From Phycisphaerae bacterium (GTDB taxonomy: Bacteria > Planctomycetota > Phycisphaerae > Phycisphaerales > UBA1924), in NCBI GenBank assembly GCA_016873295.1, contig VGXM01000013.1, forward strand, positions 1-64,000: DNA of 64,000 bases, given 5' to 3'. The position numbers and the translations under genes are program-made. Each line of letters starts with the position of its first letter. Positions within the stretch are counted from its first letter, which is position 1. The notes under the pieces were generated by a model. It saw only the letters and a list, made by a program, of their open reading frames with translations, was not told where the DNA came from and ran no database searches. Below are positions 1-6,988 of the stretch, in pieces.

Positions 1-1080
1 GCGGGTGCCACGGGCGATCCGCCCGGCGGTCGCCCGTGCCGGCGTCAGGACGGGCGTCGAACGGCGGCACGGGTCATCGGGCGAAGCGCCCGATGACCCG
101 TGGCACCCGGAGCGCTCCGTCCACGGACTTCCGACACACGCCGCTCGTGGCGCGAGTCGGAAAAACGTGCACCAAGGCGCCGGCGGGCGCTGCGGGTGCC
201 ACGGGCGATCCGCCCGGCGGTCGCCCGTGCCGGCGTCAGGACGGGCGTCGAACAGCGGCACGGGTCATCGGGCGAAGCGCCCGATGACCCGTGGCACCCG
301 GAGCGCTCCGTGCGCGGACTTCCGACACACGCCGCTCGTGGCGCGAGTCGGAAAAACGTGCACCAAGGCGCCGGCGGGCGCTGCGGGTGCCACGGGCGAT
401 CCGCCCGGCGGTCGCCCGTGCCGGCGTCAGGACGGGCGTCGAACAGCGGCACGGGTCATCGGGCGAAGCGCCCGATGACCCGTGGCACCCGGAGCGCTCC
501 GTGCGCGGACTTCCGACACACGCCGCTCGTGGCGCGAGTCGGAAAAACGTGCACCAAGGCGCCGGCGGGCGCTGCGGGTGCCACGGGCGATCCGCCCGGC
601 GGTCGCCCGTGCCGGCGTCAGGACGGGCGTCGAACGGCGGCACGGGTCATCGGGCGAAGCGCCCGATGACCCGTGGCACCCGGGGCGCTCCGTCCACGGA
701 CTTCCGACTCGCGCCACTCGTCGTGCGAGTCGGAAGAACGTGCACCAAGGCGCCGGCGGGCGCCGCGGGTGCCACGGGCGATCCGCCCGGCGGTCGCCCG
801 TGCCGGCGTCAGGACGGGCGTCGAACGGCGGCACGGGTCATCGGGCGAAGCGCCCGATGACCCGTGGCACCCGGAGCGCTCCGTCCACGGACTTCCGACA
901 CACGCCGCTCGTGGCGCGAGTCGGAAAAACGTGTACCAAGGCGCCGGCGGACGCCGGCGGGTGCCACGGGCGATCCGCCCGGCGGTCGCCCGTGCCGGCG
1001 TCAGGACGGGCGTCGAACAGCGGCACGGGTCATCGGGCGAGGCGCCCGATGACTCGTGGCACGCGGGCCGCATCCAACCA
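1..1080. repeat. Tandem array of ~191-bp units, each with three palindromes
   Basis: Units begin at 1, 192, 383, 574, 765 and 957: five full units plus a partial one, and the array probably continues off the left edge. Each unit has a perfect 16-bp-arm hairpin around an AAG loop (first copy 68-102, then 259, 450, 641, 832 and a mutated copy near 1024). It also has a 9-bp-arm hairpin (CACGGGCGA/TCGCCCGTG) and an imperfect hairpin built on TTCCGAC/GTCGGAA. Units 1-3 are almost identical; later ones diverge, and the fifth is 192 bp. Because 191 is not a multiple of three, every frame on both strands stays open, so the long reading frames here are repeat artefacts. There are no spacers, so it is not a CRISPR array. 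Confidence 0.9.
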
Positions 1081-1125
1081 CGGACTTTTGACTCGCGCCA
1101 CCAGGGCGGGACGTCGCCAGGGGCG

Positions 1126-1137: not shown

Positions 1138-2613
1138 ATGCCCGCCCGGGTCGCCTGCGTGATTCTCCTGGCCCTGTGCCTCGCCGGGTGCGGCACCACC
1201 CCCGCCAGGCCCGTGGCGATCGCCCCGGTGGAGCGGGTGGTGGTGCCCAACGGCGAGTACGACGTCGAGTTTCATTCTCAGTGGGCCGGGCCGGTGCGGG
1301 GTCGGATGACCTTCGAGGCGACGCGCGGCGGGTTCAAGGCCAACACGCGTCCGGGCGTGGCCTGGGACATGGTCGGCGGCATCGAGTCGGTCCTTGGCCC
1401 CATCTTCATGCCCTTCCTGTTCCCGCGGGGGATGGTGCTGGTCTGGAGCAGCACGCTCCCCGCGGACGACGCCGAGGGCAGGACCGTCCCAGGCGAGGGC
1501 ACGATCGGCGTGGGTGACTTCGAATCGCTGCGCGTGCGGACGCAGTTCGCGTCGGCCGACGCCCCGATCACGGTGCGCCTGCGGGACGGTCGGGCCGTGG
1601 GCGTGATGACGCTCCGCCCGGCGGAGGGGGACGCGCCTCGGGCGGCCCAGCGCACCGACTACAAGGCCCTCGCGCAGCGTACCGGCGAACTGCTCCGCGA
1701 GCACCTGTTCGACCGCAGGCTGCTGGAGACGCCCGCGTTCAAGTCGGCGTGGAAGGGGTTCACGCGCAACGCCGGCGTGGCCCAGGACGACGCCGAGTTC
1801 CTCTTCGGCGCCATCACCGCCTTCCGCGCCAACCTCACGACCTCGATGCCGCTGCTCTTCCCGCGTTCGACGCCGGCGGAGAGCACCCCGCTCGTGGAGG
1901 GGCTGACGGACCTGGTCCGCCCCTACCGCGTGATCCACGACGACAAGACCGGGATCACGACCGTGCGCTTCTATGCGTTCCTGGAGAGCGCGGCGGTCGA
2001 TGGGGCGATGGCCGAGGCCCTGGAGCACGAGCCCAGGGCCCTCATCGTCGACATCCGTCGCTGCCCGGGCGTGACGCTGGCCTCGCTGCGCCTGGCGGCG
2101 CTGCTGCTGGAGTCGCCGGCGAGCGTGGGCGTGGTGTTCGCCAGCGCCCGCCGCGAGATCGCCGACCTGGAGGCGCTCCCCGTGGGGCTGCCGACCTTCG
2201 CCGGGGTGTGGAGCAGCGCCGAGGCGTCGCGGGTGGAGGCGGCCCTGGGCGCCGAGGGCGTCGCGGAGCTGTCGGTGGCGCCCGACACGGCGGCGTCGGG
2301 CCGCTACGCCGGCCCCGTCGCGGTGCTGACGTCCAGGCGGACCAGCGCCTCCGCCGAGCTGCTGGCCCACGTGCTCAAGCAGTCCGGGCGAGCCCTTGTG
2401 GTGGGCGAGCCGACGGCGGGGCGGCCCATGCTCGGGCGCGAGTTCGACGCCGGGCAGGACTGGACCCTCATCGTCCCGTCGCTCGACCACCGCCCGCGCG
2501 AGGGCCCGCGCCTCAACGGCAGGGGCGTCGAGCCCGACCGACGCTCGGGGCGGAACGCCCCCGGAACCGCGGCGGGGATGCTGCTGGAGCGCCTGGGCAC
2601 GTCAACGCAGTGA
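1138..2613 (+). CDS. S41-like (C-terminal processing peptidase family) lipoprotein
   Basis: 491 residues. The ATG at 1138 gives a lipoprotein signal peptide with lipobox LCLAGC; the frame stays open upstream only because it runs through the tandem repeats. Residues about 20-200 match nothing I recognise. The C-terminal half has the S41 fold order: VDIRRCPG, a TSASAE nucleophile segment (Ser near residue 405), VVGEPTAGR and NGRGVEPD. In CtpA-type proteases the last part of this block carries the catalytic lysine about 25 residues after the serine; here that position is Arg (near 429). It may use another mechanism, as other S41 branches do, or be inactive. Likely lipid-anchored outside the cytoplasmic membrane. 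Convergent with prpC. Confidence 0.75.
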   Translation: MPARVACVILLALCLAGCGTTPARPVAIAPVERVVVPNGEYDVEFHSQWAGPVRGRMTFEATRGGFKANTRPGVAWDMVGGIESVLGPIFMPFLFPRGMVLVWSSTLPADDAEGRTVPGEGTIGVGDFESLRVRTQFASADAPITVRLRDGRAVGVMTLRPAEGDAPRAAQRTDYKALAQRTGELLREHLFDRRLLETPAFKSAWKGFTRNAGVAQDDAEFLFGAITAFRANLTTSMPLLFPRSTPAESTPLVEGLTDLVRPYRVIHDDKTGITTVRFYAFLESAAVDGAMAEALEHEPRALIVDIRRCPGVTLASLRLAALLLESPASVGVVFASARREIADLEALPVGLPTFAGVWSSAEASRVEAALGAEGVAELSVAPDTAASGRYAGPVAVLTSRRTSASAELLAHVLKQSGRALVVGEPTAGRPMLGREFDAGQDWTLIVPSLDHRPREGPRLNGRGVEPDRRSGRNAPGTAAGMLLERLGTSTQ

Positions 2614-5012: not shown

Positions 5013-6344
5013 ATGCTGACCGCCGCCCTTGTCGCCCTGGCTTCGCTGCCCCTCGCCGCCCAGCCCACCCTGCCCAGGGAGGTCATGGGCGAGATCTCGG
5101 GTGAGCGGGCCCACGGCGTGGTGGCACGGCTGGCCGGGTTCGGGACGCGGCACACGCTCTCCGAGACCGAGGGCGACACGCGCGGGATCGGGGCGGCGCG
5201 GCGGTGGATCAAGGGCGAGCTTGAGCGCGCCAACGAGGGGGGCGGGCGGCTCCAAGTCGCGTTCGAGGAGTTCGAGGCCCCGGCGTCGGCGCGCCTGAGG
5301 GGGGGCGGCAGGCTCGTCAACGTCGTCGCGGTCCTGCCCGGCACGGACCCGGTCGCGGCGGGCCGTCGGTACTACGTCGTGGGGCACTACGACAGCCGCA
5401 ACGCCAACGGCAACGACGCGGAGGGCGACGCGCCCGGCGCCAACGACGACGCCTCGGGCGTCGGGGTCGTGATGGAGATCGCGCGCGTGCTGGCGGGGCG
5501 TCCGCTGGAGTCGACGGTGGTATTCCTGGCGACGGCGGGCGAGGAGCAGGGGCTGATCGGGGCCCGCTACCACGCCGAGCAGGCCCGGGCCCGCGGGGAG
5601 CGCATCGTGGGCGTGCTCAACAACGACATCGTGGGCGACCCGCGCGGGTCGGGGGCCGATGAGCCCGCGTCGCCGGGGCTGATCCGCGTCTTCTCCGAGG
5701 GCGTGCCCCGCCAGCCGTCGGCGGAGGAGCACGCCCGGATCCGCAACCTCGCGGCTGAGATGGACTCGCCCAGCCGACAGCTTGCGCGCTTCATCGACGA
5801 GGTGGGGCGGAAGGAGCGCACGCTCGTGCGCCCCATGGTCGTGTTCCGGTTGGATCGGTTCCTCCGCGGCGGCGACCACTCCGCGTTCCTCGAGGCCGGG
5901 TTCCCGGGCGTCCGCTTCACCGAGGTCGGCGAGGACTACTCGCGCCAGCACGCCGACGTGGTCGAGAAGGACGGGAGGCCCTACGGCGACCTGGCGGAGT
6001 GGGTGGACGCGGAGTACCTGGGCAACGTGGCCCGCCTGAACGCCGCGGTGCTGGTGCACCTGGCCAACGCCCCCTCGACGCCCGCCCGGGTCCGGATCAT
6101 CACGGCCCAGCTCGACCACAAGACCACGCTCCGCTGGGAGGCGAGCCCGGAGGGCGACGTGGCCGGGTACGAGGTCGTCTGGCGCCTCACCACCGACTGG
6201 CAGTGGCAGGGCGTGCGGGACGTGGGGGCGGAGACCTCCGCCACGCTTCCGCTCAACAAGGACAACTACTTCGTCGGCGTGCGGGCGTACGACAAGGACG
6301 GGTACCGCAGCCCGGTGGGCTTTGCGGGTGCGGCGTCGCGATAG
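5013..6344 (+). CDS. Secreted M28-family zinc aminopeptidase with C-terminal FN3-like domain
   Basis: 443 residues. An N-terminal signal peptide (MLTAALVALASLPLAAQ) indicates export. The M28 di-zinc site is complete: GHYDSR (His125), PGANDDASG (Asp145), GEEQG (base and ligand Glu177/178), NNDIVGD (Asp205) and RQHADVVE (final His). Such enzymes remove N-terminal residues from peptides. The last ~90 residues look like a fibronectin type III sandwich (LRWEASPEGDVAGYEVVWR ... YFVGVRAYDKDG), common on secreted hydrolases. Monocistronic by appearance, with a TAGACT box 6 nt upstream. Confidence 0.88.
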   Translation: MLTAALVALASLPLAAQPTLPREVMGEISGERAHGVVARLAGFGTRHTLSETEGDTRGIGAARRWIKGELERANEGGGRLQVAFEEFEAPASARLRGGGRLVNVVAVLPGTDPVAAGRRYYVVGHYDSRNANGNDAEGDAPGANDDASGVGVVMEIARVLAGRPLESTVVFLATAGEEQGLIGARYHAEQARARGERIVGVLNNDIVGDPRGSGADEPASPGLIRVFSEGVPRQPSAEEHARIRNLAAEMDSPSRQLARFIDEVGRKERTLVRPMVVFRLDRFLRGGDHSAFLEAGFPGVRFTEVGEDYSRQHADVVEKDGRPYGDLAEWVDAEYLGNVARLNAAVLVHLANAPSTPARVRIITAQLDHKTTLRWEASPEGDVAGYEVVWRLTTDWQWQGVRDVGAETSATLPLNKDNYFVGVRAYDKDGYRSPVGFAGAASR

Positions 6345-6421
6345 GGGGCGTTGCGCCGGCGTGACCGAAGGGGGCGGGGCGGCGCGATAGGCTGCGGTTG
6401 CTGGGACACCGGAGACCCGCC

Positions 6422-6988
6422 ATGCCCGCCCTGTCACGTTGCGTCGCCTTGGCCGTCGCGGCCGGGGTCGGAACCGCGGCCGCGTTGAATCGCGCCGAGC
6501 CGCCGCCGCCGGAGGAGGGGCATCCTCCCCTGGTCAGTTGGGCGGGGTCGCACTCGGGCGTACACACTCGCCGCATCGTGCTCGTTTCGGACGAAGCGGC
6601 GTGGGAAGCCCTCTGGAAGGAGCACGCGGGGGAGGGGATCGAGAAGACCGCCCACGGCTTTGCGGTCTGGCCGAAGGTGGACTTCCACCGGTGCATGGTC
6701 CTGGCGGTCTTCTCCGGCAAGGAGACGAACGGGGCCGGGTGGCGCGTGCTGTCGGCGGGCGAGCGCGACCGGCAGACGGTGATCCGTGTCGACTGGGCGG
6801 GGTTCCAGACCTCGGCGCCGCCGGGGCAGCGTGACTTGGGCGTGCCGACGACGGGCTATGGGATCGGCGTGGTGCCGCGCTCGGCGCTGCCCGTGGTCGT
6901 CGAAGAGAACGCGCAGGGGCTCAAGGACCATCCGGCGAGGTGGCGGGAACTGGCACGGCTGGCGGCGGCGCCGCTGCCCGCGCCGTAG
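6422..6988 (+). CDS. Hypothetical secreted protein
   Basis: 188 residues from the ATG at 6422. An Ala-rich hydrophobic N-terminus (CVALAVAAGVGTAAAL) looks like a signal peptide. The rest is soluble, with TRRIVLVSDEAAWEALWKEH and a hydrophobic core VLAVFSG. No catalytic motif or family is recognised. A TAGGCT hexamer lies about 28 nt upstream. It ends 11 bp from the convergent trpF stop. Export is inferred from the N-terminus only. Confidence 0.65.
   Translation: MPALSRCVALAVAAGVGTAAALNRAEPPPPEEGHPPLVSWAGSHSGVHTRRIVLVSDEAAWEALWKEHAGEGIEKTAHGFAVWPKVDFHRCMVLAVFSGKETNGAGWRVLSAGERDRQTVIRVDWAGFQTSAPPGQRDLGVPTTGYGIGVVPRSALPVVVEENAQGLKDHPARWRELARLAAAPLPAP

Follow-up and report, generated by a model that had tools for sequence, protein, structure and literature searches.

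Results

A tandem array of elements at the start of the contig

The window (the entire 64,000-nucleotide stretch that was analyzed) lies in contig C13 of a 3.14-Mb genome assembled into 104 contigs, and the contig begins within a tandem array. TRF analysis of the 64-kb window placed this array at positions 1-1087 with a period of 191 bp, 5.7 copies, and 96% matches, while a direct-repeat search of the array yielded a repeat family with an exact spacing of 191 bp. These results confirm the tandem 191-bp array described in an earlier sequence-only reading of this DNA. It should be noted that the number of copies in the array is uncertain, because the contig starts inside it and other arrays in the genome are also located at contig ends. 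The ends of the repeated element were set from an alignment of single copies and arrays at their outer boundaries, which leaves the previously proposed period of 191 bp intact but replaces its unit boundaries with natural units bounded by TIRs (elements 2 to 6 below). The features of the array and its neighbor are as follows:

1-143, plus strand: element 1, left part cut by the contig edge, right TIR at 128-143 (read from the sequence, with the ends defined from dispersed copies)
144-147, 335-338, 526-529, 717-720, and 908-911: inter-element junctions of 4 bp, CTCG
148-334, plus strand: element 2, complete, with left TIR at 148-163, REP pair, and right TIR at 319-334
339-525, plus strand: element 3, complete
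530-716, plus strand: element 4, complete, with the right TIR at 701-716 a perfect match to the consensus
721-907, plus strand: element 5, complete, left TIR TCGTGCGAGTCGGAAG
912-1100, plus strand: element 6, complete, at the outer end of the array, right TIR at 1085-1100 (CTTTTGACTCGCGCCA)
1101-1104: flank on the outer side of the array, CCAG, differing from the CTAG target by one base
3-38, 194-229, 385-420, 576-611, 767-802, and 959-994, plus strand: REP type L, head GGGTGCCAC, 9-bp stem
68-108, 259-299, 450-490, 641-681, 832-872, and 1024-1062, minus strand: REP type R, inverted, head GGGTGCCAC, 16-bp stem
1138-2613, plus strand: predicted lipoprotein gene with a Peptidase_S41 domain, outside the element

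The units carry a perfect 16-bp hairpin (CACGGGTCATCGGGCG-AAG-CGCCCGATGACCCGTG, e.g. at 68-102), which has one change in the last unit, and a 9-bp hairpin (CACGGGCGA...TCGCCCGTG, e.g. at 9-38). Both had been recognized previously and together they constitute the inverted REP pair, in which the head of the last type R REP (1024-1062) is degenerate. An imperfect third hairpin had been proposed as well, but it is not one hairpin: since the element ends are constant and the junctions are 4 bp long, it consists of a right TIR, the CTCG junction, and the left TIR of the following element. Units 2 and 3 of the array have the same sequence, to which unit 1 shows 98% identity, and we agree with the earlier interpretation of this near-identity as a recent local expansion. 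When one unit was folded as single-stranded DNA, its energy was -77 kcal/mol, compared with -57.4 +/- 3.4 kcal/mol for shuffled versions (z = -5.7). The lipoprotein gene starts at 1138, 37 bp beyond the end of the array (1100). The array had been thought to abut the -10 box of this gene, but a scan of the adjacent sequence found no promoter of the sigma-70 type. Terminator-like matches within the array were weak and confined to the minus strand, and an Rfam search of the window returned two tRNAs only, with no match between the array and a known RNA family.

The array unit is a dispersed element with defined ends

The natural unit is an element of ~188 bp with 16-bp TIRs, the left reading TGGCGCGAGTCGGAAG and the right being the reverse complement, CTTCCGACTCGCGCCA. 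Within the stretches fetched from its own genome, we catalogued 133 TIR-bounded copies (modal length 187-189 bp) at 76 places, 48 of which hold single copies and the remainder arrays of 2 to 6; both counts are minimum values and not a genome-wide census, because the stretches were chosen for holding the repeat. A blastn query of two array units gave 194 matches in this genome, while the REP arm CACGGGTCATCGGGC matched 155+169 times, as compared with 6+10 times for a reversed control. The TIR matched 78+59 times, as compared with ≤1 match in each of 100 relatives. No full element was detected in 162 other genomes of the family, and searches with the unit in 60 relatives and in the whole family returned short REP pieces or nothing. 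Inside its own genome, both copy number and orientation of the element vary. Small, non-coding, and multicopy with precise TIRs, the element shares these characteristics with MITEs, and its anatomy is well supported. Longer variants of 230-235 bp, which carry the right REP twice, occur as well (C4:57618, C5:30332, C5:56410, C6:74786, C7:70052, and C18:48702). A second REP family (GGGTGCCACGACTGTGCCGCTCGGGGCACAGTCGTG) has tandem arrays of its own and is in places joined to the MITE as variants of 207-208 bp; its loci are C9:16614-17051, C18:35678-36250, C20:53322-53941, C22:6253-6899, and C37:12668-13014.

CTAG flanks and gene stop codons

The catalogued copies exhibit a sharp CTAG consensus on both sides of the element (left flank, C.80, T.76, A.60, G.83; right flank, C.78, T.59, A.73, G.80), and this preference does not extend any further outward. 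The flanks are mostly CTAG plus single-change variants, in agreement with the CTAG/CTAA/TTAG preference of IS5-type elements. IS5 duplicates Py-T-A-Pu, which is mostly CTAG (PMC5493358), and the IS5-type MITEPsy1 targets CTAG or YTAA (PMC3189936); these targets are the best match for the flanks of the element. From the flanks we infer an IS5-type transposase and a target duplication. Covariation between the 4-mers to the left and right of the element, which would have been direct proof of the duplication, is absent (identical in 8 of 55 cases, against 6.9 expected, with a palindromic target), and the flanks fit a duplication of the 4-bp CTAG as well as a duplication of TA inside CTAG. Among the PF13358, PF01609, and PF13586 genes found in the assembly, which is 94.75% complete, no DDE gene has matching TIRs. 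An IS5-like gene on C19 was rejected as an autonomous partner, as it lacks the element TIR, and so was an IS630 fragment on C11, which only abuts a truncated copy and lacks the other TIR. Contigs C33, C60, C65, and C6 all begin (1-118) with the same fragment of an IS630-family element, a multicopy IS that breaks the assembly.

CTAG is scarce in this DNA. Outside the array (1101-64000), the window contains 7 CTAGs versus 164 expected from base composition, and they are nearly excluded from coding sequence. In the fetched stretches, 33 of the intact CTAGs at element ends are at stop codons and 14 are intergenic, while those elsewhere comprise 16 at stop codons, 45 intergenic, and 9 coding. Gene ends were called with a purpose-written, simple codon-usage gene caller, and of those near the element, 38 fall exactly on the TAG of the flank and only 10 run into the element (7 of these at offset +2). 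The landing of the element at gene ends can be explained by the near absence of CTAG from coding sequence; the CTAGs that remain are mostly at TAG stop codons and in intergenic DNA. Insertion into a CTAG at a stop would keep the stop codon, while at other sites within genes two of three frames would run into the element. Part of the stop-codon excess can also be due to survival, because selection may preserve CTAG where it serves as a stop codon.

The element interior is related to the REPs of a RAYT gene

Between its TIRs, the element consists of a pair of stem-loops that are inverted relative to each other and share the conserved 5' head GGGTGCCAC, with >100 copies in the genome, as in REP/BIME families. 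Classical REPs have GTAG/GTGG at the foot of the stem (PMC6006769, PMC3733652), but the foot of the REPs examined here reads GGGTGCCAC / GGTGC before the stem. The same REP pair, devoid of TIRs and in a 109-bp tandem, forms the BIMEs on both sides of an intact-looking RAYT (TnpA-REP) gene on C50 (182 aa, about 6335-6883). Its protein matches Y1_Tnp (PF01797), scores 79.7 against the NCBIfam model of REP-associated transposases (0.3 bits below the cut-off of 80), and has TnpArep 4er8 as its best PDB match. The HUH motif and the tyrosine (H69, H71, and Y143) are present in 36/36 related sequences. At the position of the WQ motif, which is linked to REP-foot recognition and present in 92% of the 36 relatives, the C50 protein reads WL. 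Among the relatives, sequence within 400 bp of a RAYT gene holds GGTGCCAC heads at a 9-fold higher density than more distant sequence, at 17 of the 36 loci, and the REP stems at RAYT loci vary between lineages. A second RAYT, on C54 (1-870), is accompanied by a different stem (CCGTGCCACCGATGTCGGC...GACATCGGTG) and a similar head (CCGTGCCAC), with this REP forming a tandem of about 51 bp. Two RAYT loci of relatives (L167 and L170) contain long, regular tandem REP arrays with other stems and a spacing of 55 to 131 bp.

Arrays share junctions and derived internal ends

In the genome sample, the elements of the arrays are arranged head to tail and exactly 4 bp apart, with CTCG at 55 of 57 junctions and CTCC at the other 2. 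Arrays at 11 different places have one derived internal right TIR (CTTCCGACACACACCA) in common, and a derived internal right end (CTTCCGACTCACGTCA) is found at 6 array places, while the outer right TIRs of arrays are mostly consensus. Mean unit identity is 93% within arrays and 87% between arrays, a sign of additional local expansion. The interiors of internal units are slightly closer to the internal units of other arrays than expected, with 14-40 of 1000 shuffles doing at least as well, so that this positional test for multimer movement is a modest one. The recurrence of derived internal ends together with consensus outer ends favors founder multimers spreading as units, although gene conversion between arrays could have contributed too. 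As CTCG is one base from CTAG, an element may have inserted into a CTAG beside another one, with the junction mutating afterward. The ancestors of the arrays were probably one or a few founder multimers that had CTCG junctions and moved as units, and copy number later changed locally, as in units 1-3 of the C13 array.

Discussion

Both MITEs and REP/RAYT repeats are established classes of repetitive DNA, and the papers searched contained no description of a MITE combined with a REP pair. The element closely resembles MITEPsy1 of Pseudomonas syringae, an IS5-type MITE that is likewise ~100-200 bp in size, with 16-18-bp TIRs, a CTAG-type target, and many copies (PMC3189936). Unlike MITEPsy1, however, the element has a REP-pair interior and frequently forms head-to-tail multimers. 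A probable parent of MITEPsy1 is known, ISPsy2, whose ends are almost identical (PMC3189936), whereas no parental IS was found for the element. The interior has much in common with the BIME/REPIN elements of RAYT and REPtron systems (PMC2817692, PMC3116915, PMC8266576), which similarly have an inverted REP pair with a conserved 5' head, tandem arrays, and REPs flanking a RAYT gene with an HUH motif and tyrosine. It differs from these in the head, which is GGGTGCCAC and not GTAG/GTGG beside the stem, and in the TIRs and CTAG flanks that surround most copies. TIRtrons (TIRYT) are also comparable, since they pair tyrosine transposase genes with inverted-repeat families in dimers and clusters (PMC3733652), but no Y1 transposase gene flanked by the element TIRs was found here, and the RAYT has REPs on its flanks instead.

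We consider it likely that the array is a head-to-tail stack of a ~188-bp, CTAG-targeting, IS5-like MITE carrying a captured REP pair. According to this model, a non-autonomous mini-transposon with 16-bp TIRs would insert at CTAG in the manner of IS5-type DDE elements, a REP pair (BIME) of the RAYT encoded elsewhere in the genome would have been captured between the transposon ends and spread with them, and the element would have been dispersed both as monomers and as head-to-tail multimers. A more ambitious version is quite possible, even if we advance it only tentatively: as a hybrid of a DDE MITE and a captured HUH (RAYT) REP pair, the element could be multiplied by two unrelated machineries and spread as monomers and ready-made multimers, with the rarity of CTAG leading to harmless landing at stop codons.

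The identity of the mobilizing enzyme bears upon one alternative that would leave the element a MITE. An IS630/Tc1-mariner-type transposase could have mobilized it with a TA duplication inside CTAG, given that IS630 prefers CTAG, the flanks fit C-TA-G equally well, and IS630-family genes (PF13358) are present in the genome, some of them belonging to multicopy elements at contig ends. The IS630 copies that were examined do not have the element TIR at both ends, however, and one locus with CTAC on both sides (C43:1692) favors a 4-bp duplication, so we regard this enzyme as unlikely. It is likewise unlikely that the arrays belong to a plain REP/BIME family amplified by the RAYT alone in the manner of BIME-2, with the outer inverted repeats being additional REP-associated sequence. 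The 109-bp tandem arrays of REP pairs with the same stems beside the C50 RAYT do agree with such an origin, as do the tandem REPs near the RAYTs of relatives. Against it, the BIMEs beside the RAYT lack both the precise outer TIRs and the 4-bp CTAG flank seen in the dispersed copies, and REP insertion is not known to produce ends of this type. The GI-GIII REPs of P. fluorescens SBW25 provide a Pseudomonas parallel in their regular tandem arrays, some near-identical at distant places, but the cited part of that report mentions neither transposon-type ends nor a CTAG target (PMC3116915).

The sequence-only reading had raised the prospect of a recombination, nucleoid, or replication site or of a multi-hairpin RNA, any of which would imply functional selection upon the array. 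Its very stable fold and the many copies at the 3' ends of genes would be in keeping with such a role, and enterobacterial REPs are bound by gyrase, IHF, and Pol I (PMC6006769). Nonetheless, we consider this to be very improbable, as the same element is found at 76 catalogued places with transposon ends and a CTAG target, is confined to one genome, varies in copy number and orientation, and contains no more than weak terminator-like matches, on the minus strand. We have no evidence for a role of the array in replication, in the nucleoid, or as RNA. That the array is an artefact of assembly is hardly credible: C13 does begin inside an array and several more arrays are found at contig ends, but the units within arrays differ from each other, many arrays are contig-internal with unique flanks, and there are numerous contig-internal single copies.

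A MITE with a captured REP pair would account for the rise and spread of large tandem palindrome arrays in a bacterial genome without a site-specific function. It also suggests conventional transposons as vehicles on which REP families can travel, and landing at stop codons offers a simple, testable reason for the tolerance of such elements in a compact genome.
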